DNA from: Alphaproteobacteria bacterium
Lineage (GTDB): Bacteria > Pseudomonadota > Alphaproteobacteria > Rickettsiales > SXRF01
Assembly: GCA_025360605.1 (NCBI GenBank)
Contig: JANYBV010000032.1
Span: forward strand, 1-59,170
DNA length: 59,170 nucleotides
Direction of reading: 5' to 3'
A program made the translations under genes and the position numbers. The notes beneath the pieces are model-generated. The model searched no databases and was not told the origin of the DNA. It saw only the letters and a program-made list of their open reading frames with translations. The stretch's first letter is position 1; each line of letters begins with the position of its first letter. Of this stretch, positions 1 to 57,592 are shown one piece after another.

Positions 1-170
1 ACGCCAGCTTTATCGCAGACGACTTGAACTCAGATGAATAAAACGTCAATTTCTTCTTGGTATTTATATTCTCAGGCATTGGCTCTTAGCTCCTTCAGTA
101 TCGCTCAAGCACACTGTCCGCTAAACTATAGCCACTTCAAAGCCCGAAGGCGACAAGCCCAAGGCGTAAG

Positions 171-248
171 TAAAGGCGGCGCAAGCTAGCCTGAAGAAGT
201 AACACAAGTCGGAAGGGAGGGCTCAAAAAGCCCCCCCTTCTGCATTTT
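171..248 (+). repeat. Cassette tail repeat, copy 1
   Basis: This stretch matches 1065-1142 with a single difference over about the first 70 bases and includes the same terminator hairpin. Here it follows only a short open remnant, so it looks like the surviving 3' end of a third cassette. Confidence 0.85.
212..240 (+). terminator. Hairpin terminator of the relic cassette
   Basis: GAAGGGAGGGCT pairs with AGCCCCCCCTTC across a CAAAA-type loop. The T tract after it is weak (TGCATTTT). Same design as the hairpins at 1106-1134 and 1712-1745. Confidence 0.7.
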
Positions 249-321
249 CAGCCCCTGCCATCTTCCCCACAAAATCCCTGATTCCAATGCTTTCCTATGT
301 TACGCTTACATGAAACCCATT

Positions 322-339
322 ATGACAGTTGCATGACTT
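322..339 (-). promoter_or_regulatory. Pho-box-like direct repeat
   Basis: On the minus strand this reads AAGTCAT GCAA CTGTCAT, a 7-4-7 direct repeat close to the PhoB consensus CTGTCAT-N4-CTGTCAT. A nearly identical site lies at 28900-28917. No minus-strand gene begins just to its left within the window, so its target is unclear; it lies about 110 bases upstream of the -10 of the 594 cassette. Confidence 0.4.
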
Positions 340-450
340 TATTTACATATATATGAAAAACAATAGCATAGATGGATTTTCATACTAATAAGTCTAAAAG
401 ATAGCCTGCCGGAAATAGCGTAATTTATTAGCGTTTTTTAACACATTTGC

Positions 451-456
451 TACAAT
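451..456 (+). promoter_or_regulatory. Probable -10 box of cassette 1
   Basis: TACAAT, 46 bases before the first strand of the leader stem at 497. The second cassette has TATAAT at 1214 at nearly the same distance from its stem. The -35 region is poor (TTAGCG with a 17-base spacer). Confidence 0.45.
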
Positions 457-462
457 AAACCT

Positions 463-593
463 GTTTTACTTACCCCCAATGGAAGTGAAACAAAACCTCG
501 GGGGTTAGTTATGGGATGTACCTATTTTCTATTCCCGAGCGTAAGCCTGCACGTAACGTGGGCATGCCAGTTTTCTCGATTGGAGAACCTTCA
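463..593 (+). promoter_or_regulatory. Structured 5' leader of cassette 1
   Basis: The leader aligns with 1226-1342. It has a first weak hairpin (ACTT...AAGT), then a stem CTCGGG (497-502) with CCCGAG (534-539) closing a loop that contains GTTATGGGATGTA, then GCC-TG-CACG/CGTG-GGC, and finally TTCTC-gattg-GAGAA, which covers the Shine-Dalgarno GGAGA just before the ATG at 594. The shared loop sequence and a compensatory pair change against the second copy argue for a folded RNA. I do not recognise the class. Confidence 0.55.
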
Positions 594-1067
594 ATGGTTC
601 GTCTCAGCGTCAAGTTGGTGGCGGCGGTCACGTTGGTGTGGTTCGGTACGCGCGCGTTCGTGGAGTTCGGGGAAAAGTCCCCCCTCCGCGACCACTTCGC
701 GGGCAGCATCACGCAGGTGAAGGCGCTCGTCGGTTTCAACCCCGACCCGTACCTCGCCATCGGCCTGCTGTTCCTCGCCGTCCTGCTCGTCGAGTCGTTC
801 GTGTGCCTCGTCAATGTGGTCTACCGGAAGCTCTTCACCCGCAAGGTGATGGAGTTGCCGGCCGTGACCCAGATGGAGCTCGTCAAGGAATTCCTCGACA
901 ACACGGAACTCCGAGACGTGATCCGCGCCGCGTCGATGCAGGACCTTCAGGTCATGATCGCCGACGACAAGACCCGCGCTGCGCTCCGTCGCCTGCTGCA
1001 GCCCCTCGTCACCGAAATCATCAAGAAATCGGGGACCAAGGCCAAGCCGGCGGAATCGCAAGTCTAA
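594..1067 (+). CDS. Small membrane protein of GC-rich cassette
   Basis: A 157-residue protein with hydrophobic segments at about residues 5-22 and 53-77, followed by a charged, helical cytoplasmic-looking region (residues 80-145) and a Lys/Pro-rich end. I do not recognise a family. The ATG at 594 is preferred over the in-frame ATG at 516 because it has GGAGAA seven bases upstream and because the longer start would lie inside the conserved leader. Third codon positions are strongly G/C, unlike the surrounding host genes, which suggests acquisition. Followed at once by the tail repeat and terminator. Function unknown. Confidence 0.7.
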   Translation: MVRLSVKLVAAVTLVWFGTRAFVEFGEKSPLRDHFAGSITQVKALVGFNPDPYLAIGLLFLAVLLVESFVCLVNVVYRKLFTRKVMELPAVTQMELVKEFLDNTELRDVIRAASMQDLQVMIADDKTRAALRRLLQPLVTEIIKKSGTKAKPAESQV

Positions 1068-1142
1068 AGGCGGCACAAGCTAGCCTGAAGAAGTAACACA
1101 AGTCGGAAGGGAGGGCTCAAAAAGCCCCCCCTTCTGCATTTT
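1065..1142 (+). repeat. Cassette tail repeat, copy 2
   Basis: Begins at the stop codon of the 594 gene and matches 171-248 almost base for base, including the terminator. The retained identity in non-coding sequence points to a recent duplication. Confidence 0.85.
1106..1134 (+). terminator. Terminator of cassette 1
   Basis: Stem GAAGGGAGGGCT with AGCCCCCCCTTC over an A-rich loop, then TGCATTTTTAG. Confidence 0.75.
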
Positions 1143-1213
1143 TAGCGCCTTCCACCCGCACATTTTCTCATGATTCCGCGATTATTTAATTTTAAAATTT
1201 TCCAGCCATATGC

Positions 1214-1219
1214 TATAAT
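1214..1219 (+). promoter_or_regulatory. Probable -10 box of cassette 2
   Basis: Perfect TATAAT, 47 bases before the leader stem at 1261. No strong -35 (TTTAAA at 1191-1196 with a 17-base spacer). Confidence 0.55.
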
Positions 1220-1225
1220 TATCCC

Positions 1226-1342
1226 GTTTTTACCACCTTGTGGAAAATCGTTTCGTTTTCTTTCGGGGTTTGGTTATGGGGTGTATCCTGTACATTCCCC
1301 GAAAACGGTTCTCACCCGTGAAGTGAGTCAGGAGTTTCTCCG
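1226..1342 (+). promoter_or_regulatory. Structured 5' leader of cassette 2
   Basis: Homologous to 463-593. Elements in order: CCAC-ctt-GTGG; stem TTTCGGGG (1261-1268) with CCCCGAAA (1297-1304) around a loop with GTTATGGGGTGTA; CTCAC-ccgtgaa-GTGAG; and GGAG-ttt-CTCC directly before the ATG, which would hide the Shine-Dalgarno GGAG. Compared with copy 1, the C497-G539 pair is replaced by T1262-A1303. Confidence 0.55.
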
Positions 1343-1681
1343 ATGGCGAAAGCTTTTCTGAAGTTCTACCTGTTTCTGGTGGGACTTTGCATCACGTTGG
1401 TTCCGCTCTCGTGGTTGGACATCAACGTCAACAATGCCCCTTCTACCATTTCCTCAGGGAATAAAGGAGGAGCAGCGCTCGAAGTCGTGATGGAAGTCTC
1501 CAACGCCTCCGCTCACATCCCCGTGATGGTGCGCGGTTTGGTTTCGGATTATCTGCTGTGTACAGCGCTGGTTGGTCTTGTTATCTTCCTTGCTTTCGCC
1601 GCCCATTGGGTTGGTGAAAGGATTCACAAGGATGTGAAGATCATGACCAACGAACACGGCACTACCGATCTGGGAATCTGA
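1343..1681 (+). CDS. Small two-helix membrane protein of second cassette
   Basis: A 112-residue protein with hydrophobic helices at about residues 6-25 and 70-90, a polar Ser/Asn-rich region between them and a charged C-terminal tail. No family is recognised and there is no clear sequence match to the 594 protein, although both have two helices and share leader and terminator type. The ATG lies behind CAGGAG inside a small hairpin. Composition is closer to the host than that of the 594 gene. Function unknown; a stress or phage-related small membrane protein is possible but unsupported. Confidence 0.7.
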   Translation: MAKAFLKFYLFLVGLCITLVPLSWLDINVNNAPSTISSGNKGGAALEVVMEVSNASAHIPVMVRGLVSDYLLCTALVGLVIFLAFAAHWVGERIHKDVKIMTNEHGTTDLGI

Positions 1682-1711
1682 GAAGATCCTGTCGGCAAGT
1701 CGTAGAAAACA

Positions 1712-1745
1712 AAAAGGGAGGGCCAAAAGCCCCCCCTTTTTGCGT
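1712..1745 (+). terminator. Terminator of cassette 2
   Basis: AAAAGGGAGGGC paired with GCCCCCCCTTTT over a CAAAA loop, followed by TGCG. Same family as the hairpins at 212 and 1106. Confidence 0.8.
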
Positions 1746-1755
1746 TCTAGGGAAT

Positions 1756-2511
1756 TTACTCCGAAGGTTTGGGAGCTTCTTTTTTAGCAGGCTTTGCTTT
1801 GCTTTTTTTCTTCTGCTGCAACACCACCATCGACGAAAATTTTCCTTCCACCGTTTTAGGTTCTGCACTTGCGGTGGGCAATGGCCGCCGTTCCTTTTTT
1901 GCTTTCACATTATCGGCCAGCACGAGCTTAAAACCACCCTCAGCCGCTTCGGCGATGCTCAGCGTCATTTTTTTAACCGGCGGCTTGGATTCACGCACAT
2001 ACACCAGCAGATGCACCTTATCCGCACCCGGAATTGAAATTTCCGGAAACTCCTCATGCAGCAATTGCAGTTCCTGACGCGCCGCTTCAATGGTGGGATA
2101 CATTTTACCGCGTGTGGCTGCACGCAAAATAGGATGGCCGGTGTCGGGGTGGCGTTTGTTGACGCGTGTTTTTTCGGGATGCTGTTTAAGTTCGGTGACA
2201 ATCTTCTCCGCTACGAGCGTAAACTTGCCCTTATCGGCGGTTTTTATGGCGATAACGGCGAAGTTTCCTTTATAGCCTTTTTTGATTTCCTCGTCAGTGA
2301 CGGCAAAACCGCTGATCCATAATTTCAGTGTCGGCGAATTATCCGGCCCGATGGGATTTTGGTCTTTGGATATCGTAAAATTTTTATAGATGCGGTCCAT
2401 CACCACAACAGCCTGCGCAGGCGTTCCGAAACGGAACCTGCCAGCGATTATAGCTTCCAGCGTTGGATCTTTCAGGCTGGCGATCAGTTTTTTACGTTCT
2501 TTTCCGCTCAT
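1756..2511 (-). CDS. Hypothetical protein with Lys/Pro-rich tail
   Basis: A 251-residue soluble protein with no signal peptide or membrane segment. The N-terminal 200 residues look like a mixed alpha/beta domain; the last 40 residues are low-complexity Lys/Ala/Pro. I do not recognise a family. It ends just beyond the terminator of the opposite-strand cassette, and the next minus-strand gene (methyltransferase) lies 91 bases upstream, so the two could share transcription. The Shine-Dalgarno before the ATG is weak. Confidence 0.75.
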   Translation of the reverse strand: MSGKERKKLIASLKDPTLEAIIAGRFRFGTPAQAVVVMDRIYKNFTISKDQNPIGPDNSPTLKLWISGFAVTDEEIKKGYKGNFAVIAIKTADKGKFTLVAEKIVTELKQHPEKTRVNKRHPDTGHPILRAATRGKMYPTIEAARQELQLLHEEFPEISIPGADKVHLLVYVRESKPPVKKMTLSIAEAAEGGFKLVLADNVKAKKERRPLPTASAEPKTVEGKFSSMVVLQQKKKSKAKPAKKEAPKPSE

Positions 2512-2602
2512 AAATACAAAAACTCAGGGCGATAGTATGGTTGCATACACCCTTTGTTTATAGCGCAAGTTGTTTAAAAATCGGTGAAAAATAGGTAAAG
2601 GA

Positions 2603-3343
2603 TTAGGATTTCAGGCCTAAAATCGGCTGATTGGCGGCAATGGAGACGACATACTTCTTACGCACCACCACAGGCTGGCGAATCGAGGCGTAGAGCTGCT
2701 TTTCAGCCTCAATCAGCAGCACACCACCAAAAAACGGGCATAAAAATTTACCAATTCTTTCTATTTTGCGGGCCAGACGCCATAAAAGCCGCCAGTGGGT
2801 GGGGGGCAGGAACAGGGCCGAGCTGGAGCGTGTAGGGGTGAATTGCTTTTCACTGAGCAGGTCACGCAGCTGCAGGATGGAAAACGGCCTGCCATACCCG
2901 AACGGGCTGCGCGAGGAACGCGACCAGAATCCGAGGCGGTTGGGCACGACTGCAATCATGCGTCCCCCCGGGGTTAGCACACGCCACATTTCCTCCACCA
3001 TCGCCGAAAGCGGTTCACTATGTTCAAAACTGTGAATCAGTAAAATGCGGTTGATACTGTTTTCGCGCAGCGGGAATTCCGATTCATGCGCCAGAAACGT
3101 CATATTCGCTTCCGATGACGGCCAGCACGCCGCGCCCTGCCGCGCCGGCATGCACACGATCACAGGCTCGGTACCGTTTCTGTAATTTTCGAGATACGGT
3201 GTAGCATAGCCAATGCCCAGCAGCGCATCTCCTTTAATGTCGGGCCAAAGATGCTGGATACTGGCAGCGATCAGTGAGCGAACCTCCTCACCAAACGGTG
3301 TGGCGTAAAACTGACGCAGGCTGAGAATGTCGGGTGCGAACAT
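2603..3343 (-). CDS. Class I SAM-dependent methyltransferase
   Basis: A 246-residue protein of the Methyltransf_11 type. The SAM-binding motif I has the form LLGIGYATPYL instead of the usual LDLGCGTG; the acidic and post-motif signals continue with LRENSINRILLIHSFEH, and the motif MWRVLTPGGRMIAVVPN fits the motif III region. The GYATPYL variant is, to my memory, typical of a conserved alphaproteobacterial subgroup of unknown substrate. Cytoplasmic. Divergent from the lytic transglycosylase at 3415, with 71 bases between the two starts that should hold both promoters. Confidence 0.8.
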   Translation of the reverse strand: MFAPDILSLRQFYATPFGEEVRSLIAASIQHLWPDIKGDALLGIGYATPYLENYRNGTEPVIVCMPARQGAACWPSSEANMTFLAHESEFPLRENSINRILLIHSFEHSEPLSAMVEEMWRVLTPGGRMIAVVPNRLGFWSRSSRSPFGYGRPFSILQLRDLLSEKQFTPTRSSSALFLPPTHWRLLWRLARKIERIGKFLCPFFGGVLLIEAEKQLYASIRQPVVVRKKYVVSIAANQPILGLKS

Positions 3344-3414
3344 AATTTTCGACTATTGACTTTATTACGAATACTGACACAAGAATAACTCGCAAACGCT
3401 TATGGAAGCAAGCA

Positions 3415-5376
3415 GTGTTCAGACTCGTTCAATATTTAATGCTTATCCTGCTGGTAGCCGTTACCGCAACGGATGCCTGTGCTAAATTATCCGGTGAAAA
3501 CCTCGAACATGCACGCAGCGCCTCTGAGTTTTCTGAGCGCAAAGACTGGGAAAATGCCCTCGCTCACGCCAAACATACGGGCGAACCTGCGTTCCAGAAA
3601 CTGATCCAGTGGCAATATTACCTCGATCAGGATTCCGGTGCTTCCTTTGATGAGATCACCCGATTCATTGAGCAGAATCCCAACTGGCCCGACCAGAAAA
3701 AACTCCGCATTCGCGCCGAAATGTCACTGAAGAAAGACAACGTGCCTGATCATGATGTGATTTCGTGGTTCAATGACAGCACACCCATCACCGGTATTGG
3801 AAAAGTGGCATTGGCGGAAGCGCTGAAACGCAACCGGCTTGCTTCGAAAGACAAGATCACCTCCCTCATCCGCGAGGCATGGAAAAATGGTGATTTTGAC
3901 GAACCGCAGGAAAAGAAAATCCTCGATAGCTACGGCGATATACTGACGCTGGACGATGACAAGGCGCGTATCGACCGACTCTTGTGGGAAGAGCGCGTTG
4001 CCCCTGCCAAACGTTTGCTCAGTTTCGTGCCGGAAGGATATCAGAAACTCTATAAAGCCCGCATGGCGCTGATCGAGGAAAAACGCCTCGCCATTATCGC
4101 TGTGGCGCAGGTTCCTTCCTCTCTCAGGAACGATGCAGGCCTCACCTATAACCGGATGGTGTTTCGTGCCCATCGTGACGACGACAAAGGCGTGCGCGAG
4201 ATGTTGCTGCTTGCGCCGGAAAAGCCGCCTTATCCCGAAAAATGGTGGCGCTACCGCGATGTGCATATACATCTGGCGATTGACGAAAAAAATTATGCCC
4301 TTGCTAAAAAACTGCTTGCCAATCATGGGCAATCCGAGGGGTCGGGCTATGCCGATGCCTTGTGGTTGCAAGGCTGGATTGACACGGAATTTTTCGACCG
4401 ACCAAGCGCAGGTCTGGATGCATTTGAAGATATGTATGACCGCGTAAAATACCCCGTCAGCAAGGCTCGGGCGGCCTATTGGGCGGCGCGTAGTGCAGAA
4501 AAATCCGGCGACAGCAAGAAAGCCGAAGAATGGTATAAAAAAGCAGCTTCCTACCCCACCACGTTTTATGGCCAGCTTGGTTCATTGAAATACAACGGCA
4601 CTTCTCCGCTTTCCCTGCCTTCCAGCCCTGCCATAAGTGCGAAAGACCGCGATAGCTTCGAGCAGGATGATTACGTCAAGGCAATTAAAATTACGATTGA
4701 TCTCGGTAATTATGACCTAGCCCGCCGCCTGATCACGCTGGCGGTTGAAAACAGTGATGATGCGGCGGAGGCTTCGCTCGTCAGTGAGCTTGGGGTGAAA
4801 TCGGGGCATAACAGTTTGAGCGTGCATGCGGCTAAAAAAGCGCTGCAACAAAATATAGTGCTTGTGGATGGTGGCTACCCGATGCCAAAAACACCATCCG
4901 GTAATCCGCTGGAACGTTCCCTCACCCTCGCTATCACGCGTCAGGAAAGCGAGTTCGATCCCAATGCCAAAAGCCCGTCCAATGCACTCGGTATGATGCA
5001 GTTGTTGCCAAGAACCGCCAAGGAAATTGCAAAGAAAAACGGCATTCCTTTTTCACCTGCCCGCCTGAGCGAACCAAGCTACAACATGACACTGGGGAGT
5101 TTTTATCTTTCGCGCCTTATAAACAGCTATGACGGCTCCTATATCATGGGCATTGCCGCCTACAACGCAGGTCCGGGCAATGTGCATAACTGGGTGAAGA
5201 AATTCGGAACTCCGAGCAACAATCTGAACAATGCGATTAACTGGATTGAAAAAATTCCCTTCACCGAAACACGCAACTACGTTCAGCGTGTGATGGAAAA
5301 TCTGCAGGTATATCGCTCCATCGATTCAGAAGACTCTGACAACAAGCTCAAGATAGCGGAAGATCTGATGCGTTAG
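3415..5376 (+). CDS. Soluble lytic murein transglycosylase (Slt family)
   Basis: A 653-residue periplasmic enzyme that cleaves the MurNAc-GlcNAc bond of peptidoglycan with formation of 1,6-anhydroMurNAc. A signal peptide occupies about residues 1-23. A long alpha-helical superhelix (residues 30-480) of the Slt70 U-domain type precedes the C-terminal goose-lysozyme-like SLT domain. RQESEFDPNAKS places the catalytic Glu at residue 511, followed by ALGMMQLLP and AYNAGPGNV, the usual SLT motifs. The start is GTG with GGAAG upstream; an ATG at 3402 is out of frame. Its product sugar links it functionally with AnmK at 25173-26294. Confidence 0.93.
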   Translation: MFRLVQYLMLILLVAVTATDACAKLSGENLEHARSASEFSERKDWENALAHAKHTGEPAFQKLIQWQYYLDQDSGASFDEITRFIEQNPNWPDQKKLRIRAEMSLKKDNVPDHDVISWFNDSTPITGIGKVALAEALKRNRLASKDKITSLIREAWKNGDFDEPQEKKILDSYGDILTLDDDKARIDRLLWEERVAPAKRLLSFVPEGYQKLYKARMALIEEKRLAIIAVAQVPSSLRNDAGLTYNRMVFRAHRDDDKGVREMLLLAPEKPPYPEKWWRYRDVHIHLAIDEKNYALAKKLLANHGQSEGSGYADALWLQGWIDTEFFDRPSAGLDAFEDMYDRVKYPVSKARAAYWAARSAEKSGDSKKAEEWYKKAASYPTTFYGQLGSLKYNGTSPLSLPSSPAISAKDRDSFEQDDYVKAIKITIDLGNYDLARRLITLAVENSDDAAEASLVSELGVKSGHNSLSVHAAKKALQQNIVLVDGGYPMPKTPSGNPLERSLTLAITRQESEFDPNAKSPSNALGMMQLLPRTAKEIAKKNGIPFSPARLSEPSYNMTLGSFYLSRLINSYDGSYIMGIAAYNAGPGNVHNWVKKFGTPSNNLNNAINWIEKIPFTETRNYVQRVMENLQVYRSIDSEDSDNKLKIAEDLMR

Positions 5377-5585
5377 CGGAAGTTGGTGTGTGACGGGCAG
5401 TTGTACAAATCGTCATCCACACAGCCGGTAACTGTCGGCGGGGTGTAACCACGGTCGTTTTCGCGGCGGTAGTTTTCACGCGCGATGCGGGCGTAATCAA
5501 GGTCTTCCCATTCATTCTTGCCATTTTTTTCGCACGCACCCAGCAATAGCAAAGTTAATAGTGCGAATGTAATGCGAGTGTTCAT
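5373..5585 (-). CDS. Small lipoprotein
   Basis: A 70-residue protein that starts MNTRITFALLTLLLLGAC, a lipoprotein signal with lipobox LLGAC and acylated Cys18. The mature part is short, charged and Tyr/Asn/Asp-rich with three further cysteines or near-cysteine turns (GCVDDDLYNC). The ATG overlaps the NhaA stop codon (ATGA), so it is translationally coupled to nhaA; a longer start 13 codons upstream would lie inside nhaA. Its end overlaps the slt end by four bases on the opposite strand. Function unknown. Confidence 0.72.
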   Translation of the reverse strand: MNTRITFALLTLLLLGACEKNGKNEWEDLDYARIARENYRRENDRGYTPPTVTGCVDDDLYNCPSHTNFR

Positions 5586-6688
5586 GACGGTACTTTTTTG
5601 ATTTTTATGGCCAACGCCATACATATAGTCCCTAAAACGGCAGATGCAAGCGAACCTGTAACCACTCCAAGCCTCGCATATTGCATTAACGAGTCATTGC
5701 TAAAGGCCAGTGTCCCTATGAATAGGCTCATGGTGAAGCCTATTCCGCACAGGATGGACATGGCGTAGAGTTGCAACCATGTCGCCTGAAGTGGCATTTT
5801 TGCCACACCAAATAGGATCATCAGAGCGGTGGTAATAAATATACCCAGTTGTTTTCCAAAGAATAATCCGGCTGCGATACCGGCACTGACAGGATGTGCC
5901 AGCGCGTTAAGATGCAACCCCTGAAGGCTCACTCCAGCGTTAGCAAATACGAATACCGGCACGATAACGAATACCACCCACCCATGCAAAAAATGCAACA
6001 CACGTTTGCCCATAGGTAACGGCAACAGGAAGCCCAGCGCCACTCCTGCCAGTGTCGGGCTGATACCCGCATCCAGTAAAGCAATCCACAGTGCTACACC
6101 GAGAAACACGTAAGGGGCCAGTAATTTGACGTAACGGTTATAGACGGCCAGCAGTGCTATGCATCCCAGCGCGAACAACAGCGCCGCCCAGTGCAGCGTA
6201 TGGGTATAGAAAAAAGCGATAATACCCACCGCCATCAGGTCATCGAATACCGCGATACATAGCAGAAAAATTCGCAGCGCCGCCGGAACGCGTTTCCCGA
6301 AAACGGATAATGCACCCAGTGAAAAAGCAATGTCGGTAGCCGTTGGAATCGCCCAGCCATGCAGGTTTTCTCCGCCTGCATTGAAATAATAGAAAAAAGC
6401 AGCAGGCAATGCCATGCCGCCCAGCGCAGCCACCACCGGAAGCACCATCTGCGATGGTTCGGACAGGTAACCTTCCTTGATTTCGAGCTTAATCTCGATG
6501 CCGATGCACAGGAAAAAAAGTGCCATCAGCCCGTCATTGATAAACAGCGTGCTGTCGGGGGTATGCAACTGGCTGTATTGCGCTGCCAGCGGCGTGTTGG
6601 CGGCCACCATCGCAAGGCACGTCATCATCACAAGCAGTATACTGCTGGCGGATTCCAGCTTCAGAAATGTTTTGAGGCGATAAATCAT
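5582..6688 (-). CDS. nhaA: Na+/H+ antiporter NhaA
   Basis: A 368-residue inner-membrane antiporter exchanging cytoplasmic Na+ for external H+, used for salt and pH homeostasis. Eleven or twelve hydrophobic helices are visible. Family signatures include NDGLMALFFLCIGIEIK near the N-terminus, the ATDIAFSLGAL motif with the paired aspartates of the transport site (one in ATDIAF, the next in CIAVFDDLMAVGIIA), and FGKQLGIF. Length is close to the usual 380-390. ATG at 6688 is chosen; a GTG at 6706 adds six residues. Coupled to the lipoprotein gene downstream; divergent from gltA. Confidence 0.95.
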   Translation of the reverse strand: MIYRLKTFLKLESASSILLVMMTCLAMVAANTPLAAQYSQLHTPDSTLFINDGLMALFFLCIGIEIKLEIKEGYLSEPSQMVLPVVAALGGMALPAAFFYYFNAGGENLHGWAIPTATDIAFSLGALSVFGKRVPAALRIFLLCIAVFDDLMAVGIIAFFYTHTLHWAALLFALGCIALLAVYNRYVKLLAPYVFLGVALWIALLDAGISPTLAGVALGFLLPLPMGKRVLHFLHGWVVFVIVPVFVFANAGVSLQGLHLNALAHPVSAGIAAGLFFGKQLGIFITTALMILFGVAKMPLQATWLQLYAMSILCGIGFTMSLFIGTLAFSNDSLMQYARLGVVTGSLASAVLGTICMALAIKIKKVPS

Positions 6689-24576: not shown

Positions 24577-24972
24577 TTAGCTGCCCAACTCACCGAAGAT
24601 GAACCCGAGATCGAGTTCGATGTCGTCGATCGGGGTGGAGACCTCGAGCTGGGCCGTGTGGCCGTTGCAGGAGATCGCCTCCGTCACCATCATCATTCCG
24701 ACGTGGCTGCCGGTAGAGGTGAGCATGACGAAGCTCTTGATGAACACGACGTGCATGACCGTGAGGTAGTAGCACCCGTCGAGTTGGAACTCTTCGGTGT
24801 CGCCGGGGTCGATGAAGAAGACCAGTTCCTTGCCCTCGTCCGTCGTCAGCTTGATGCTGAGGCGGTTGCGGGTGTTGTTGAAGAACTGGGTTCCACCGAA
24901 CAAGGGACACTGGGTGACCTGAAGGCCGTGGAAACCGAGACTGGGACCGCTGATGCCGTTGATGCTCAGCAC
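24577..24972 (-). CDS. GC-rich small soluble orphan protein
   Basis: A 131-residue protein, beta-rich by eye, with no membrane helix or signal peptide; contains FFIDPGDTEEFQLDG and an acidic C-terminal part. The start is GTG 24972 with AAGGAG seven bases before it; an upstream ATG at 25014 lacks such a site. Codons are strongly G/C-ending compared with the neighbours. Promoter, leader and terminator are its own. The Shine-Dalgarno is one arm of CTCCTT-TT-AAGGAG. No family recognised; composition suggests horizontal origin. Confidence 0.65.
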   Translation of the reverse strand: MLSINGISGPSLGFHGLQVTQCPLFGGTQFFNNTRNRLSIKLTTDEGKELVFFIDPGDTEEFQLDGCYYLTVMHVVFIKSFVMLTSTGSHVGMMMVTEAISCNGHTAQLEVSTPIDDIELDLGFIFGELGS

Positions 24973-25078
24973 TGGACTGCTCCTTAAAAGGAGGGTCAAA
25001 CTTGCACTCGCCAAGAACCGAAGTTCAGGGAAAGTCTACTTCTTCTCCAGCTGGTTGCTGGTAAAAAAAGAAAGTAGT
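24973..25078 (-). promoter_or_regulatory. Structured leader of the 24972 gene
   Basis: On the minus strand: CCAGC-aacca-GCTGG, then GAAC-ttcg-GTTC (a UUCG-capped hairpin), then CTCCTT-tt-AAGGAG over the ribosome site. The opening TTTTTACCA...TGGAGAA resembles TTTTTACCA...TGGAAAA of the leader at 1226. Confidence 0.5.
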
Positions 25079-46339: not shown

Positions 46340-47983
46340 ATGACTGCATTAGCCGACACGGTCAAAGGCCTGAGTAAAGGCAACACAAGCATGATTCTTA
46401 CCGTTGCTATCATGGCGATTATTGGTTTTATGATTTTTGCCCTGAAGAGTTCTACCAGCAGCTTCACCCCCCTTTATACAGGCCTCTCCCTTGAGGATAG
46501 CTCCAAGATTGTAGCGGAGCTTGAGAAGTCGAACACTCCCTATGAATTGCTGGCTAATGGTTCAGAAATTACGGTTCCTTCCGATCGTGTATTGCGTATG
46601 CGCATGAACATGGCGGAGCAAGGATTGCCCTCCGGCGGTTCCGTGGTTGGTTATGAAATTTTTGATAAATCCGAAACATTCGGAAGTTCCAACGCGGTCA
46701 TCAGTATCAACGTCATGCGGGCGCTGGAAGGCGAGCTGTCGCGCACTATCGGCTCATTAGCGGATGTAGATACTGCGCGTGTGCATCTGGTGATGCCCAA
46801 GCATGAACTATTCACGCGTGAAAAAGATAAACCCAGCGCATCGGTGACCATAAAGATGCGCGGCGGGCACTCCTTGGAACATTCGGAAGTATCGGCGATA
46901 ACACATCTGGTATCTTCAGCGGTTCCAGGGCTGGATGTGTCACGCGTGACTGTGGTCGACGGACATGGCCGCCTGCTCGCACGTGGCGATGGTCTGGGGC
47001 TTGATGGCACATCAGGTAATGCCGAAGAGTTTAAAACGGCGTATGAAACCAAAACACAACAATCACTGGAAGATTTAGTCGAGAAAGTCATTGGTTCCGG
47101 AAAAGTACGCGTGCAGGTTGCCGCTGACATGAATTTTGATCGGGTGGTTACCAATTCCGAGAAATATGATCCGGATGGACAGGTGATCCGCTCGGTTCAG
47201 TCCAATACCGAAAAAGAAAATTCACAGGAAAAAACCGCGAAGGAAAATGTTTCAGTCAATAATAACCTGCCTGCCGGTGGCAGCGCTGGTGAAGGTGGTA
47301 GTAATAACCGCCTCAATGACCGTACCGACGAAACCACCAATTACGAAATATCCAAAACGGTGCAAAACCATGTGTCCGAAGGCGGTAAAATCAACAAGCT
47401 TTCCGTAGCTGTATTGGTGGATGGAACCTACACGGGGGATGATGGAAAGACCTATACACCACGCACTGAAGATGAACTTAAACAGCTCAAAACACTGGTG
47501 GCGTCTGCTGTGGGATATGATGAAAAACGGGGCGATAAAATCGAAGTGGTCAATATGCGCTTTACGCTCGATTCCTTCAATGTGGGTAGTGAATCATGGT
47601 ATGAACGTTTCAAACTTGAGGCACAGTCCATTATTCAGACATTGATTATCGCTATCGTTGCCATCCTAGCTATCTTGCTGGTATTGCGTCCGGCGGTAAA
47701 CCAGATGATCAAGCAATCACAATCGGCAAGCCAGCGTATCCAAGGTGAATTAGCAGCGCTTGGCAACGCCAAGACTGGCGGTGGTAATGCACGCCTGCCA
47801 AGTGGCGGCGATGGTGGCGGTAGAGGTGGTGGTGACATCCCTTCCGGCGAAAATGAAATGCTGATCGATGTAGCCAACGTCAAAGGCGGCATGAAATCAT
47901 CGTCTATTCGTAAGGTTAATGAAATTGTCGATAAATATCCCGAAGAAACCATGAACGTATTGAGAAATTGGGTTTCTAAGTAA
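46340..47983 (+). CDS. fliF: Flagellar MS-ring protein FliF
   Basis: A 547-residue inner-membrane protein building the MS ring at the base of the flagellum. Membrane helices lie near residues 15-38 and 430-452, flanking a large periplasmic YscJ/FliF domain (LYTGLSLEDSSKIVAELEKSNTPYEL..., RALEGELSRTIGSLADVDTARVHLVMP). The C-terminal segment after the second helix, ending in MLIDVANVKGG...MNVLRNWVS, is the FliG-binding tail. AAGGAG ribosome site. First gene of the flagellar operon. Confidence 0.96.
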   Translation: MTALADTVKGLSKGNTSMILTVAIMAIIGFMIFALKSSTSSFTPLYTGLSLEDSSKIVAELEKSNTPYELLANGSEITVPSDRVLRMRMNMAEQGLPSGGSVVGYEIFDKSETFGSSNAVISINVMRALEGELSRTIGSLADVDTARVHLVMPKHELFTREKDKPSASVTIKMRGGHSLEHSEVSAITHLVSSAVPGLDVSRVTVVDGHGRLLARGDGLGLDGTSGNAEEFKTAYETKTQQSLEDLVEKVIGSGKVRVQVAADMNFDRVVTNSEKYDPDGQVIRSVQSNTEKENSQEKTAKENVSVNNNLPAGGSAGEGGSNNRLNDRTDETTNYEISKTVQNHVSEGGKINKLSVAVLVDGTYTGDDGKTYTPRTEDELKQLKTLVASAVGYDEKRGDKIEVVNMRFTLDSFNVGSESWYERFKLEAQSIIQTLIIAIVAILAILLVLRPAVNQMIKQSQSASQRIQGELAALGNAKTGGGNARLPSGGDGGGRGGGDIPSGENEMLIDVANVKGGMKSSSIRKVNEIVDKYPEETMNVLRNWVSK

Positions 47984-48008
47984 AACAGTGTAGCGAGCAG
48001 GTTATTAT

Positions 48009-49043
48009 ATGGCACCTAAAGAGCCAAAAGATAGTAAGGACGAATATAAAAAACTCAGTGGCCCACAAAAGGCTGCCATGTTTCTTATGGCGGTTGGCGA
48101 AGAAACGGCCATTAAATTATTTTCTATGATGGAAGATGATGAAATCCGTGAAATTTCCAACATGATGTCAACGCTCGGTCAGGTACCGTCTGACATGGTG
48201 GAACGCCTGTTCATGGATTTTGCGGAAGGGGTGTCTGAATCGGGGGCTATCGTCGGCAACTATGAAAGCACTGAACGTCTTCTTGTGAAAGCGCTGGGTA
48301 AAGGGCGCGTAGATTCGATCATGGAAGAAATCCGTGGTCCTGCCGGTCGCACCACGTGGGATAAGCTTGGCAACGTCAACGAAGAAATTCTTGCTACCTT
48401 CCTCAAAAATGAATACCCGCAAACTATTGCGGTGGTGCTGTCTAAAATCAAACCTGACCATGCCGCAAAAGTACTGATGAATTTACCGGACGATTTAAGC
48501 ATCGAAGTCATCGCCCGTATGATCAGCATGGAGTCCGTCAAAAAAGACGTGATGGAAGGCATCGAAAAAACCCTGCGTATGGAATTCATGAGTAATCTGG
48601 CGAAACGCCAGACCCGCGACAGCCATGAAATGCTGGCGGAAATTTTCAACAACTTTGACCGCAATTCTGAAACCAAATTCATGGGCAAGCTGGAAGAGCG
48701 TGATTTGGAATCGGCTAACCGCGTTCGTGCGCTGATGTTCACCTTCGAAGATCTTATCAAAATTGATAAGTCTGGTATCCAGACGCTCCTGCGCGGCATT
48801 GACAAAGACAAGCTGGCAATCGCCATGAAGGGCGCATCCGACACGATCAAAGACCTGTTTATGGCCAATATGTCCGAACGCGCGTCCAAAATTCTGCGTG
48901 AAGATATCGAATCCATGGGGCCTGTGCGTATTAAAGACGTGGATGAAGCACAGATGTACATTGTAGGCATCGCCAAAGATCTCTCCACCAAGGGTGAAAT
49001 TATTATTGCTGGTGATAGTGAAGAAGAACAACTGATCTACTAG
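48009..49043 (+). CDS. fliG: Flagellar motor switch protein FliG
   Basis: A 344-residue cytoplasmic C-ring protein that takes torque from the stator. Three armadillo-like domains are visible: KLSGPQKAAMFLMAVGEETA, EYPQTIAVVLSKIKPDHAAKVLMNLPD (with HPQT-type region), and the torque domain MFTFEDLIKIDKSGIQTLLRGIDKDKLAIAMKGA with the usual charged residues. Directly after fliF. Confidence 0.96.
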   Translation: MAPKEPKDSKDEYKKLSGPQKAAMFLMAVGEETAIKLFSMMEDDEIREISNMMSTLGQVPSDMVERLFMDFAEGVSESGAIVGNYESTERLLVKALGKGRVDSIMEEIRGPAGRTTWDKLGNVNEEILATFLKNEYPQTIAVVLSKIKPDHAAKVLMNLPDDLSIEVIARMISMESVKKDVMEGIEKTLRMEFMSNLAKRQTRDSHEMLAEIFNNFDRNSETKFMGKLEERDLESANRVRALMFTFEDLIKIDKSGIQTLLRGIDKDKLAIAMKGASDTIKDLFMANMSERASKILREDIESMGPVRIKDVDEAQMYIVGIAKDLSTKGEIIIAGDSEEEQLIY

Positions 49044-49050
49044 GGCGAAT

Positions 49051-49818
49051 ATGAAGTTAGAACGTTTGGATTTTAAAGAACTGGAGTTTGGGGCGCAGAT
49101 TAAAAATGCTGCCGTCACGGGCAAGGTTTTTTTACCGTCGCACACCCGTAAAATTGAGCCGCCAGCGCCACCTCCTCCTCCGACTTTTTCCGAAGAAGAA
49201 ATGATGTTAGCCGAGCGTGAAGGCTATAAAAAGGGATTCGCAGCCGGAGAAATTGAAGGACGCAAACAGGCGGAAAATCAGCAGGCGGAAATCAATAATC
49301 AACTGGTTGCAATGATAGATACATTCACATCTTCCGTCGCCCCCATCTTCGACCATTACCGCACCATGACGCTGGACTTACAAAAAGATATTCCTAACGT
49401 TGCTCTGGCTATTGCGCGTAAGGTGGCGGGTGAATCGTTGCAGGCCAATGCCGAAGCTGTGGTGTGCGACATTGCCATGAAAGCCTGCGAGACGATGATT
49501 AGCGAACCGGAGCTTACCATCGTGGCACACGAAAGTTTTGCCGATACGCTGGAGAACAAGCTTCAGGAACTGGCGCAAAGGCTTCCGGCGGCTACCCGTA
49601 TTATCATTGTGCGCGATCCTGATATGCCAAAGGCGGATTGCCGTATAGAGTGGCACAACGGATCCCTCGAACGCGTAACAACAAACCTGTGGCAGCATGT
49701 GGAAAAAGCGATAGGCAATATGCAGGTGATCGGTAAGCGTGAAGCCACCGACCAGTTAGAAGAACTACAAGCAAAAGTTTTAACTTCAAATGAAACATCA
49801 GGAAGTGAAAAGGAGTAA
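49051..49818 (+). CDS. fliH: Flagellar export regulator FliH
   Basis: A 255-residue protein of the FliH/FlbE type, regulator of the export ATPase FliI. The Ala/Glu-rich helical middle (EREGYKKGFAAGEIEGRKQ with the GxxxG repeats typical of FliH) and the C-terminal domain DLQKDIPNVALAIARKVAGESL fit the family. Position between fliG and fliN equals flbE in Caulobacter. No fliI in the window. Confidence 0.88.
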   Translation: MKLERLDFKELEFGAQIKNAAVTGKVFLPSHTRKIEPPAPPPPPTFSEEEMMLAEREGYKKGFAAGEIEGRKQAENQQAEINNQLVAMIDTFTSSVAPIFDHYRTMTLDLQKDIPNVALAIARKVAGESLQANAEAVVCDIAMKACETMISEPELTIVAHESFADTLENKLQELAQRLPAATRIIIVRDPDMPKADCRIEWHNGSLERVTTNLWQHVEKAIGNMQVIGKREATDQLEELQAKVLTSNETSGSEKE

Positions 49819-49821
49819 GTT

Positions 49822-50109
49822 ATGGCTGATCAAATAGATACTATTGCGGAAGTAACGGGCGATAATTTAAGCCTTGAAACTGTGTATGATATTCCCGTCC
49901 AGATAACAGTTATTCTGGGACGTACCAGCATGCAGGTGAACCAGCTGCTGAAGCTTGGTCGCGGCGCGGTGATCGAGCTGGATAAAAAAGTGGGCGAACC
50001 GATTGACATTTTCGTTAACAACCGCCTTGTCGCTCGTGGCGAAGTGGTGGTGGTTGAAGAACGTATCGGTGTAACCATGACGGAAATCATTAAAGCAGAA
50101 AAACACTAA
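49822..50109 (+). CDS. fliN: Flagellar motor switch protein FliN
   Basis: A 95-residue C-ring protein with one SpoA domain: YDIPVQITVILGRTSMQVNQLLKLGRGAVIELDKKVGEPIDIFVNNRLVARGEVVVVEERIGVTMTEI. Length and motif are standard. Three bases after fliH. Confidence 0.96.
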   Translation: MADQIDTIAEVTGDNLSLETVYDIPVQITVILGRTSMQVNQLLKLGRGAVIELDKKVGEPIDIFVNNRLVARGEVVVVEERIGVTMTEIIKAEKH

Positions 50110-50137
50110 CCAACGCGCCTGAGGAGTAGTTTACACT

Positions 50138-51502
50138 ATGCGACTTTTGATTATCGGAGAACTCTACGGCCAGATTGGGGCCGCCAGCCGTATCGCCCGT
50201 TCGCGTGGCGCAAAGGTATCGCATGTAGGTGATATTGAATCAGCAATGAACGCGCTGCGTGATGGTCAGGGTGCTGACCTGATCATGATTGAAGTGCGCG
50301 AAGACATCGAAAAACTGGTGACGCTGCTGATGCGTGAACGTTTCAACGTTCCGGTGATTGCGTGTGGTGTGCAGGCCGACAAGGACCTTGCCGTGCGTGC
50401 CATTAAATCCGGTGCAAAGGAATATATCCCGCTTCCACCCAACGAAGAGCTGATTGCCGCCGTTTTAGAAGCCATCACCGAAGAAGCCCAATCCCTCATT
50501 TTTACCTCGCCGGCAATGACCAAGGTGATCGGCATGGCAGACCAGATTGCGCCGAGTGATGCCAGCATCATGATTACGGGTGAATCCGGAACGGGTAAGG
50601 AAGTCATCGCCCGCTATATCCATAAAAAGAGCAAGCGCTCCGGCAACACCATGATCAGCGTCAACTGCGCGGCTATTCCGGAAAATCTGCTGGAATCCGA
50701 ACTTTTTGGCTATGAAAAAGGTGCATTTACGGGGGCGGTTGCCCGCCGTATAGGTAAGTTCGAGGAAGCCGAAGGCGGCACCATCCTGCTGGATGAAATC
50801 AGCGAAATGGACATGCGGCTGCAAGCTAAACTGCTGCGTGTATTACAAGAACGTGAAGTTGACCGTATCGGCGGCAGCAAACCGGTGAAGGTCAATATCC
50901 GCGTCCTCGCCACGTCCAACCGCAATATGCAGGAAGAAGTCAAAAAAGGAACCTTCCGCGAGGATTTATATTTCCGCTTGAATGTTATCACCATGAATAT
51001 GCCTGCGCTGCGTGAGCGTGTGGAAGATGTCAAACCGCTGGCTGAATATTTCGTGGAAAAATATTCCAAAGCGAATGGCATTTCCCTGCGCAAGATCAGC
51101 GATGCCGCACTGGCCAAGCTTTCCAAATACCATTGGCCGGGTAACGTGCGCGAACTGGAAAACACCATGCACCGCACCATATTACTCGCCACCGGAAACA
51201 TCATCGAACCGGATGCTATTATGCTTCAGGGCATGGTGGAACAGCAGCCTGAAGTGGTCGCTGTGGCCAACACCTCGGGAGCCATGAGCAAACCCGCAAG
51301 CGGCAATACCGGCGGGTTGGTCGGGCGCACGGTCGATTCCGTTGAACAGGAACTGATTCTCGATACGCTCAGCTACTGCCTCGGCAACCGCACCCATGCC
51401 GCCAATATTCTGGGCATTTCAATACGAACCTTGCGTAACAAGCTGAAGCTATATGGCGAGAGCGGCGTTCCCGTTCCGCCTCCACCTACTGGTTCAGATT
51501 AA
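50138..51502 (+). CDS. flbD: Sigma-54-dependent flagellar regulator FlbD
   Basis: A 454-residue bacterial enhancer-binding protein. The N-terminal receiver-like domain lacks the acidic pocket and has Glu in place of the phosphoacceptor (LIMIEVRED), as in FlbD. The AAA+ domain is intact: GESGTGKEVIAR, GAFTGA, GGTILLDEIS, and LRERVEDV. A Fis-type helix-turn-helix ends it (THAANILGISIRTLRNKL). It should activate late flagellar genes with sigma-54. Gene order fliF-G-H-N-flbD matches Caulobacter. Confidence 0.92.
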   Translation: MRLLIIGELYGQIGAASRIARSRGAKVSHVGDIESAMNALRDGQGADLIMIEVREDIEKLVTLLMRERFNVPVIACGVQADKDLAVRAIKSGAKEYIPLPPNEELIAAVLEAITEEAQSLIFTSPAMTKVIGMADQIAPSDASIMITGESGTGKEVIARYIHKKSKRSGNTMISVNCAAIPENLLESELFGYEKGAFTGAVARRIGKFEEAEGGTILLDEISEMDMRLQAKLLRVLQEREVDRIGGSKPVKVNIRVLATSNRNMQEEVKKGTFREDLYFRLNVITMNMPALRERVEDVKPLAEYFVEKYSKANGISLRKISDAALAKLSKYHWPGNVRELENTMHRTILLATGNIIEPDAIMLQGMVEQQPEVVAVANTSGAMSKPASGNTGGLVGRTVDSVEQELILDTLSYCLGNRTHAANILGISIRTLRNKLKLYGESGVPVPPPPTGSD

Positions 51503-51511
51503 GGGGTTTTT

Positions 51512-53653
51512 ATGGCTGAGGCATCAGTACCTGCCCAACCGCCAGTTGTCTTTGGATTACCGTTTTTACGCATATTGGCGAAACAAAGCGCCAAGCGTGC
51601 CGATATCTTTTTCGCTATCGGCATTATTTGTATTCTTGTTATCCTTATCCTGCCGTTGCCTGCGTTCCTGCTGGACGTGGCGCTGGCGATATCCATCACG
51701 CTTTCGGTTATCATCCTGATGACGGTGTTGTTTGTTGAAAAACCCCTGCATTTAAGCTCCTTCCCTACTATTTTGCTGATTGTCACCATGCTGCGCCTGT
51801 CGCTCAACATTGCGTCAGTGCGCCTGATCCTTAGTCACGGGCATCAGGGAACAGCTGCTGCCGGACATGTGATTCAGGCATTTGGCGGATTCGTCATTGG
51901 TGGTCAGATCGTGATTGGTGCGATCACCTTCGGCATCCTGACCATCATCAATTTCGTAGTAATTACCAAAGGTTCCGGCCGTATCGCCGAAGTATCGGCC
52001 CGCTTCTCGTTAGACGCGATGCCTGGTAAGCAGATGGCTATCGATGCCGACTTATCGGCAGGCCTCATCACGGAAGATGTCGCTAAATCGCGCCGCAAAG
52101 AGTTGGAAGACGAAAGTAACTTTTTTGGTGCGATGGATGGTGCCAGCAAATTCGTTCGCGGTGACGCCATTGCGGGTATTCTTATCGTATTCATCAACTT
52201 TATTGCCGGTATTCTCATCGGGGTGGTGCAAAACGGCCTGACGTTCAACGCCGCGCTCCACACCTATACCATCCTGACCATCGGTGATGGTCTGGTGTCG
52301 CAAATCCCTGCCCTCATCGTCTCGATTGCCGCCGGTATCCTCGTCACTAAATCCGGTGTCGCCGGTTCGGCGGAAAAAGCCGTGATCGGCCAGCTTGGCC
52401 GCCAACCTACCGCACTCGGCATTACCAGCGCATTTTTGCTCGGTATGGCAGCACTTCCGGGGATTCCGCTTATTCCTTTTGTGGCGCTTTCCGCCGCAAC
52501 CGGATATGCGTGCTGGTATATGTTTAAAAACCCGAACGAACTCTTTCAGAAATCCGGTGCCGCTGCTGCCAAGAAACTCGAAGGCCCTGCGGCGGAAGGG
52601 GCTGAAGCCAAGGTGGCGGAAGAACAACCGTCCGACTTCCTGCAAATAGATGCGCTGCGTCTGGAACTTGGCTATGGGTTGTTGCCGCTGATCAACTACC
52701 AGAAAGGCCATCGCCTCACTGATCAGATTAAGGCACTGCGTAAACAGATGGCGCGTGAACTCGGGTTCGTCATTCCGGCCGTTCGTATTCAGGACAACAT
52801 GCAGCTTCCCGCCAATACCTATGTGGTAAAAGTCAAAGAAATCGAAGCCGCACGCGGTGATATCAAACCGGAAATGCTGCTGGTAATGAACCCCGCCGGT
52901 GGACAGATATCCATGCAGGGGGAAGAAACCACCGAGCCGACCTTCGGCCTGCCCGCCATGTGGATTACCGAAAATCACCGCGAAGAAGCCTTGTTCCGCA
53001 ACTATACCGTCGTTGATCCGCCAACCGTTATAACCACTCACCTGACCGAAGTGGTCAAAGATAACATGGCGGAATTACTGTCCTATGCCGAAACCCAGAA
53101 ACTGCTGGATGATCTGGGCAAAACACAGCAAAAACTCGTCAGCGAAACCATCCCGTCACAGATTTCTGTCGGCGGGGTTCAACGTGTCTTACAGAACCTG
53201 CTGCGCGAGATGATTTCCATCCGCGACCTGTCAACGATTGTGGAAGCCGTTTCGGAAGCCTCGCGCACCACGCAAAACCAGCTCATCATTACCGAGCATG
53301 TGCGCTCCCGCCTCGCCCGCCAGATCTCGCATTCGCAAACCAATGAAAATGGCTACATCCCGATTATTGCGCTTTCACCAATTTGGGAACAAACGTTCAT
53401 CGAAGCGATTTCCGGTGCGGGTGAAGAAAAAGTACTTTCTATGGCTCCGAGTAAAATTCAGGAATTTATCGGTATCACCCGAGCAACTTTCGATAAATTT
53501 GCCGCACAAGGAGAATTGCCTGTACTGCTCACCAGCCCGACCATCCGTCCGTTCGTGCGCTCTATCGTCGAACGTTTCCGCGCTACGACGGTGGTTTTGT
53601 CGCAGAATGAAATCTATTCCAAAGCGCGCATCAAAACCTTGGGGCAGCTATGA
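51512..53653 (+). CDS. flhA: Flagellar export gate protein FlhA
   Basis: A 713-residue inner-membrane export-gate component. About eight helices occupy residues 25-330, including the FHIPEP block (LRLSLNIASVRLILSHGHQGTAAAGHVIQAFGGFVIGG region) and SLDAMPGKQMAIDADLSAG. The cytoplasmic domain that docks chaperone-substrate pairs follows to the end. Nine bases after flbD. Confidence 0.96.
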   Translation: MAEASVPAQPPVVFGLPFLRILAKQSAKRADIFFAIGIICILVILILPLPAFLLDVALAISITLSVIILMTVLFVEKPLHLSSFPTILLIVTMLRLSLNIASVRLILSHGHQGTAAAGHVIQAFGGFVIGGQIVIGAITFGILTIINFVVITKGSGRIAEVSARFSLDAMPGKQMAIDADLSAGLITEDVAKSRRKELEDESNFFGAMDGASKFVRGDAIAGILIVFINFIAGILIGVVQNGLTFNAALHTYTILTIGDGLVSQIPALIVSIAAGILVTKSGVAGSAEKAVIGQLGRQPTALGITSAFLLGMAALPGIPLIPFVALSAATGYACWYMFKNPNELFQKSGAAAAKKLEGPAAEGAEAKVAEEQPSDFLQIDALRLELGYGLLPLINYQKGHRLTDQIKALRKQMARELGFVIPAVRIQDNMQLPANTYVVKVKEIEAARGDIKPEMLLVMNPAGGQISMQGEETTEPTFGLPAMWITENHREEALFRNYTVVDPPTVITTHLTEVVKDNMAELLSYAETQKLLDDLGKTQQKLVSETIPSQISVGGVQRVLQNLLREMISIRDLSTIVEAVSEASRTTQNQLIITEHVRSRLARQISHSQTNENGYIPIIALSPIWEQTFIEAISGAGEEKVLSMAPSKIQEFIGITRATFDKFAAQGELPVLLTSPTIRPFVRSIVERFRATTVVLSQNEIYSKARIKTLGQL

Positions 53654-53681
53654 TGCTCACTTATTCGGTTGATTAATCCTC

Positions 53682-54698: not shown

Positions 54699-54722
54699 AC
54701 AAAGGTGTAATGGTGATTTATT

Positions 54723-55478: not shown

Positions 55479-55482
55479 CGCC

Positions 55483-57528: not shown

Positions 57529-57592
57529 CTTTTTTAGGGTAAACAACCATCTTCTGTTTGCGGTTTCCAATGTTTCCTAGTATTTTCCTGTC

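Follow-up and report, generated by a model that had tools for sequence, protein, structure and literature searches.

The window analysed here is the whole of contig C25 (59,170 bp) of genome G000 (2.68 Mb, 57 contigs), and its first 1,750 bases carry the end of one single-gene unit, C, followed by the complete units D and E (Table 1). An earlier note on this DNA had described units D and E as two tandem cassettes, 1 and 2; the array is real, but it comprises five units, A–E, which lie in a row in G000 and are split over contig C56 (left) and the window (right), with unit C reaching across the contig break. The leader of unit D matches C56:20734-20880 at 75%, the end of C56 lying at 21,479. In the locus L011 (C56:17000-21479), dnaN and a cyclopropane-synthase-like gene (CMAS match 2.1e-87) are encoded on the minus strand, followed by units A, B and C on the plus strand; dnaN was called from a 91% match to the gene of the congener G001, and the name is our own. 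The open reading frame (ORF) of unit A comprises 43 aa, that of unit B 103 aa and that of unit C 156 codons up to an insertion. The alignment of the unit C and D spacers reaches 99 of 166 aligned positions (60%) with 37 gap columns, and in the unit D leader a Shine-Dalgarno-like GGAG lies ahead of the ATG at 594.

Table 1. Features of units C, D and E at the left end of the window.
Feature	Position	Strand	Remarks
End of insertion sequence (IS)	1..139		interrupts unit C and breaks the contig
3' end of unit C ORF	140..169	+	AAG at 140-142 equals the three bases preceding the IS on C56
Unit C tail	171..251	+	79/81 (98%) identical to unit D tail; terminator-like hairpin by that identity
AT-rich spacer and promoter-proximal region, unit D	252..450	+	partly alignable with that of unit C
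-10-like box TACAAT, unit D	451..456	+	read by eye; unscored by consensus scan
Unit D leader	460..593	+	hairpins P1 497-539, P2 546-562
Unit D ORF, 157 aa	594..1067	+	two predicted transmembrane segments; GC3 0.90; homologue of unit C
Unit D tail, terminator-like hairpin	1065..1145	+	unscored by terminator scan
-10 box TATAAT (extended TG), unit E	1214..1219	+	scored by consensus scan
Unit E leader	1222..1342	+	held out from model R1 and recovered by it, E 1.8e-6
Unit E ORF, 112 aa	1343..1681	+	two predicted transmembrane segments; GC3 0.625
Unit E tail hairpin	1700..1748	+	minus strand: terminator-like site where the neighbouring gene ends

The interruption of unit C is caused by an insertion sequence, presumably IS3-like as judged from its TGA...TCA ends and 3-bp duplication. 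Positions 1-126 of the window occur in identical copies at 8 contig ends of G000, its own end included, and identity at all 8 runs to base 139 (TCA) and stops there, while the last 135 bases of C56 are found in 6 identical places in G000, each at most 2 bases from a contig end and preceded by TGA in 6/6 cases. The triplet AAG flanks the IS on both C56 and the window and is absent from the other 12 IS ends, and for five of six right ends a left end flanked by an identical triplet exists, the pattern expected of a 3-bp target duplication. Since the terminal repeats of C56 and the window sit at contig ends, the IS is placed between them, and the unbroken order dnaN, CMAS, cassette and methyltransferase in G001 (L038) lends independent support to joining the two contigs. 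Read from these sequences, unit C spans the contig break, with the IS separating its 3' end on the window from the rest on C56. What the earlier note took for a short coding relic ahead of the repeated tail is indeed coding DNA, but it represents this severed 3' end.

Adjoining unit E, a 251-aa ORF on the minus strand (1756-2511) gave no match in Pfam or NCBIfam and none in the corresponding 3.7-kb locus of G001; on that strand, the unit E tail reads as its terminator.

To compare the leaders, a covariance model (R1) was built from leaders A–D only, with a GGGR/YCCC pairing that was replaced by a longer hairpin once the leader of G007 had been seen. R1 recovered the held-out leader E (Table 1), and the two leaders of the window, D and E, are therefore related, as had been proposed from their alignability. 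In 55 genomes (G000 and relatives), R1 gave matches at E <= 1 in nine, of which those in G007 (3.8e-4) and G001 (0.92) were accepted besides G000. A second model, R2, built from leaders A–E and G, returned four of 343 genomes of the order at E <= 0.1 (G000, G007 and G011 accepted, G014 rejected), six of 16 family genomes at E <= 3 (G000, G001, G007 and G011 accepted; G014, rejected, and G009 outside the accepted count) and two of 385 class-sampled genomes at E <= 0.02 (G000 and G658, the latter rejected). Stricter filters apply to searches of more than 40 genomes, at the cost of weak copies, and the 343-genome search missed G001. Altogether, eight leader copies were accepted in four genomes, i.e. 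in 4/16 family genomes, and no accepted leader was found outside the family among the 343 order genomes and 385 class-sampled genomes. The three copies beyond the array are F, at the same site in G001, and G (G007) and H (G011), located elsewhere. The leader of F is near noise when taken alone (E 0.92 with R1, 1.58 with R2) and was accepted on site and anatomy; as read by eye, each accepted leader precedes an ORF that is followed by a hairpin tail. Viral contigs contained no match to an exact pattern derived from the array leaders, and a search of genome contigs with the G/H protein profile returned only the loci of G and H themselves (records JAGVLO010000008.1 and JAGVKI010000332.1, respectively). 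The prediction that the leader would recur many times around different small genes is thus borne out to the extent of eight copies before six protein groups, confined to one family among the genomes searched.

Matches at G014:C11:8166, G000:C13:393960 and G658:C2:47420 were rejected because they lie inside long ORFs (judged by eye for G000). R1 matches at E 0.2-0.9 in G054 (two), G021, G010, G025, G050 and G052 were not accepted, the alignments having been viewed for one of the G054 matches and for G010, and three weak G000 matches (E 1.4-8) as well as G011:C161 and G009:C120 (E about 1.1) were likewise left out of the accepted set.

The -10 boxes of units D and E end 43 and 45 nt ahead of the matching hairpin C, counted by hand, so that the equal distance reported earlier holds for these two and also for units A and C (45 nt), but not for unit B, where it is only 34 nt. 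In window 1-1800, a consensus promoter scan returned 4 promoter-like sites against 1.2±1.3 in shuffles; one, with two overlapping readings, lies at unit E, unit D being unscored. L011 2500-4480 gave 0 sites (shuffles 1.3). The terminator scan revealed no excess in window 1-1800 (3 sites, shuffles 2.3±1.6), where two of the three hits read the E tail along the minus strand. In L011 it gave 7 sites (shuffles 2.1±1.4), among them the plus strand of the A tail and the minus strand of the B tail. All seven tails that were folded (D, E, A, B, G, H and F) form hairpins; that of D (z -4.0) and that of E (z -4.9) are of one type, which has an internal 1x1 mismatch. The claim of a common terminator type can hence be kept for the hairpin, but neither the D nor the E tail scored on the plus strand. 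The repetition of the tail of cassette 1 was confirmed, 1065-1145 matching 171-251 at 98% (E 6.6e-34). As to a promoter and terminator around each single gene, the scans scored a consensus promoter for E only and a plus-strand terminator for A, with -10-like boxes read by eye elsewhere; the other promoter and terminator calls derive from alignment and folding rather than from the consensus scan.

The tail hairpins of B (L011 3525-3551), D (window 1107-1135) and E (1717-1737) have an A-C 1x1 mismatch in common, which is present in the unit C tail as well by its identity with D. On the opposite strand this mismatch becomes a G-T wobble, and the minus-strand stems of B and E score as terminator-like. 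By eye, the promoter regions of B and F (L011 3020-3060, L038 3500-3535) have TTAACTTTMRTTAAC in common upstream of the -10 box, possibly a regulator site.

Judged from the alignment, the leader is a two-hairpin RNA of about 110-130 nt with compensatory changes. The eight distinct leaders were aligned to R2, giving 17 pairs in three helices; six of them had been used to build R2, so that the alignment leans towards the structure, while H and F were not used in building. Of the leader cells, 86.3% were paired, compared to 80.5±1.7 in shuffles (1 of 500 as high), with 13 double-change cells (5.1±1.8; 0 of 500) and a covariation score of 0.422 (0.300±0.035; 1 of 500). Two measures were weaker: double-change pairs numbered 8 (4.4±1.5; reached by 7 of 500 shuffles) and further pair types 22 (19.6±1.6; 63 of 500). 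Sliding the alignment by 1-3 columns reduced the paired cells to 42-56%. Single-sequence folding was strong in leaders C and D (z -3.7 and -3.1) and weak in A, B and E (z -0.7, -1.2 and -1.7). No Rfam match at gathering score was obtained over the window, L037, L038 (G001) or L050 (G011), and the 7 listings of a search of L011 by E-value, like the 11 of a further search, all fell under the family gathering scores. The Shine-Dalgarno region is mostly paired in leaders C, D, E and H (unpaired probability 0.05-0.18) and reaches 0.34-0.51 in A, B, F and G, compared to a mean of 0.34 (sd 0.23) for 36 host genes. Its sequestration as the mechanism of the leader was therefore unsupported, occlusion not clearly exceeding the level of these host genes, and no translational occlusion is claimed.

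The eight ORFs A–H fall into six protein groups by sequence: A, B, C/D, E, F and G/H. Kyte-Doolittle windows revealed two hydrophobic segments in six of eight products, one above threshold in B and none in A (43 aa), i.e. seven of eight carry one or two predicted membrane segments. None of the eight has an accepted family in Pfam, PADLOC or NCBIfam, and the proteins of A–E gave no PHROGs match. No relatives were found in viral contigs (B, D, E and F, and profiles G/H and D/C) or in phage records (B, D, E, F and H), no plasmid matched the D protein or window 440-1760 as DNA, and a PDB sequence search with the G/H and D/C profiles returned nothing under E 0.47; AlphaFold models of G+H (pLDDT 57) and D+C (pLDDT 39) were too poor for a fold search. 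Pairwise comparison identified C and D as homologous (BLASTP 6e-05, 25% over 159; z 9.2, 0 of 300 window-shuffles), as are G and H with 46% protein identity. Four of the other 26 pairs exceeded z 2, namely B-F (4 of 300), B-D (8), D-F (12) and E-G (12), and after 28 comparisons a relationship of any of these pairs is not convincing, B-F being borderline. The earlier observation that the proteins of cassettes 1 and 2 are unlike each other stands, D and E having no common sequence signal. The wider claim of a swapped coding part is only half right and unsupported as an outright swap: most of the proteins have no convincing relationship, but C-D, whose leaders match best of all pairs, and G-H are diverged homologues.

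Codon usage sets most of these orphan genes apart and looks foreign. GC3 amounts to 0.79-0.90 in B, C, D, F, G and H, exceeding all 107 sampled G000 genes (mean 0.55, maximum 0.674; mechanically called ORFs of at least 150 aa from about 157 kb), while A (0.605) and E (0.625) are not outliers; F, G and H also lie above the neighbouring ORFs of their own genomes, with ORFs overlapping the cassette left out. When the six high-GC3 ORFs are pooled, 95% of their Lys codons are AAG and 56% of their Leu codons CTC, compared to 28% and 16% in 81 G000 genes. Neither the leaders (GC 0.47-0.53) nor the spacers (0.24-0.39) are rich in GC. The codon use of the six ORFs correlates best with that of G014 (r 0.63), and at 0.34-0.58 with the cassettes' own genomes. 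In G014, a family genome without an accepted cassette, GC3 climbs to 0.83 in genes of ordinary appearance, so that the source may be a relative with a higher G+C content. High expression was rejected as the cause, the CAI to fusA/rpsG/rpsL being under the host average except for E. The simplest reading is a common foreign source of the six ORFs; selection on the coding sequence is possible. One of 30 unverified host ORFs of 100-179 aa, a 145-aa ORF on the minus strand at 24577-25014, also reaches GC3 0.85; a 191-aa ORF overlaps it on the other strand, and it may be spurious.

The interval between dnaN and the methyltransferase gene holds five units in G000, one in G001 and none in G002, all within one genus (g1). 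It further contains CMAS and the 251-aa ORF in G000 and CMAS in G001; in G002 (79% complete, site on a 5.5-kb contig) CMAS is missing, and dnaN and the methyltransferase gene directly adjoin with about 300 bp between them. The immediate neighbours in G000 and G001, the dnaN, cyclopropane synthase-like and methyltransferase genes, lie outside a recognised prophage. Units G and H occupy other chromosomal sites and have no neighbour in common: among ORFs of at least 120 aa from L075, L050 and L038, the comparison of L075 with L050 yielded no match apart from the cassette and an ORF lying antisense to it. Two of the last ORFs of a flagellar-like run followed by a polyprenyl synthetase-like gene (window 46340-58603, labels by eye) have homologues a few kb from unit H in G011 (L050). 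Inspection by eye revealed no mobility gene, att site, cassette-own target duplication or recombination site. The proposed duplication is reflected in the 0, 1 and 5 units at one site and the proposed mobility in the other sites, movement being inferred from position only.

The two homologous pairs have diverged differently. In C-D, identity amounts to 72% (99/138) from -10 box to ATG, 46% in the coding part and 98% (79/81) in the tail, compared to 57% (70/123), 57% and 68% (55/81) in G-H. A kept leader beside a lost coding similarity is hence clear in C-D and absent in G-H. For G-H, dN is 0.49 and dS, close to saturation, 1.39, and the second codon position is the most conserved, which speaks for constraint on the protein; for C-D, dN and dS are saturated (0.95 and 0.90). 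The mixed identities of C-D suggest recombination in the flanks, most likely a recent exchange or gene conversion affecting the tail.

We lean, at somewhat better than even confidence, towards reading the units as moron-like accessory cassettes that duplicate in tandem and relocate as self-contained single-gene units. Each would consist of a promoter, a structured leader RNA of about 110-130 nt, a small fast-evolving ORF, mostly for a membrane protein, and a terminator-like tail, and units would accumulate in tandem at the insertion-prone dnaN/methyltransferase site, with single copies elsewhere in a related genus. Promoter and terminator would be functional, and copies would multiply by duplication and by recombination at the conserved leader and tail, so that the control elements could persist while the coding parts diverge or are replaced. 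The common leader would impose a common, probably post-transcriptional, control on products that would serve as accessory membrane proteins. For these products a role in conflict, e.g. phage exclusion or immunity as in phage morons, would be the most plausible, though this step, taken alone, seems rather unlikely.

A sizeable minority of our confidence goes to ordinary tandem duplication, in which one ancestral two-transmembrane gene is inherited vertically and nothing is swapped or mobile, the regulatory DNA being constrained while the ORF diverges fast under diversifying or relaxed selection. The homology of C-D and G-H, the borderline pair B-F (4 of 300 window-shuffles reach its score, as one of 28 pairs), the two hydrophobic segments in 6/8 proteins and the equal divergence of leader and coding DNA in G-H are consistent with it, whereas most proteins behind similar leaders have no recognisable similarity, the C-D tails are 98% identical beside 46% in the coding part, G and H lie at different chromosomal sites, and six ORFs in four genomes share a use of AAG and CTC unlike that of their neighbours. 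We also consider it possible, if doubtful, that a new cis-regulatory RNA, responsive to a ligand as a riboswitch, to a protein or to an sRNA, controls several unrelated small membrane proteins; the array would then be its regulon, and what matters would be the shared leader rather than mobility. The two hairpins with compensatory changes over eight leaders, the RUGU apical loop of P1 and the ACG loop of P2 (each in 6/8, by eye) and the lack of Rfam matches at gathering scores argue for such an RNA; there is no evidence of an alternative fold, however, the Shine-Dalgarno unpaired probabilities (0.05-0.51) are not clearly under those of the 36 host genes, and the leader is confined to one family, while most riboswitches are not confined to one bacterial family.

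Repeats of type I toxin-antitoxin systems, i.e. small membrane toxins with structured translation-inhibiting leaders, would account for tandem units, structured leaders and membrane products, but are very unlikely, given that type I toxins are typically shorter than the 103-174 aa of seven of the eight ORFs and that no Rfam antitoxin match was obtained. An integron-like gene-cassette array whose tails serve as recombination sites for an integrase is the most improbable of these alternatives. One ORF per unit, a single orientation and the repeated 3' sequence of the tails resemble integron gene cassettes, whereas each unit here has its own -10 box and leader, no attC core (GTTRRRY/RYYYAAC) was seen in the tails by eye, and no integrase was recognised by eye among the ORFs of L011 or window 1-6000.

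Among known systems, phage morons are single accessory genes with their own promoter and terminator, and the cassettes resemble them as single-gene units with their own control ends, a composition unlike their surroundings and orphan products. They differ in forming a chromosomal array outside a recognised prophage and in a conserved structured leader common to different genes, and no phage relative was found for the cassette proteins searched, so that the comparison is without homology support. The yybP-ykoY leader stands upstream of unrelated membrane proteins, and such shared-leader regulons likewise place one RNA architecture before non-homologous membrane-protein genes; unlike them, the cassette leader has no known ligand, is arrayed with conserved tails and occurs in one family. 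Lambdoid phages undergo modular exchange at conserved boundary sequences, similar to the conserved flanks with variable genes between them seen here, except that exchange among the cassettes is inferred from the pair C-D only. The term 'moron' is used in PMC7067206, and a literature search covering titles and the openings of abstracts found no description of this cassette arrangement, which is not proof of absence.

Reading the units as duplicating and relocating moron-like cassettes, they would provide a natural case of regulatory ends that stay conserved around coding parts that have been replaced or have diverged past recognition, headed by a leader RNA with covariation that lies outside the Rfam families at gathering score. 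With 0, 1 and 5 units at one site within a genus, tandem growth and flank recombination become directly testable. More tentatively, the units may be a mobile expression cassette, in which the two-hairpin leader and the terminator form an exchangeable frame for hypervariable small membrane proteins with a codon signature of their own. That orphan genes of four genomes have such extreme codon usage in common is a hint of a carrier element so far unseen, and, if true, this mobile-cassette signature would point to a common carrier moving among related alphaproteobacteria.
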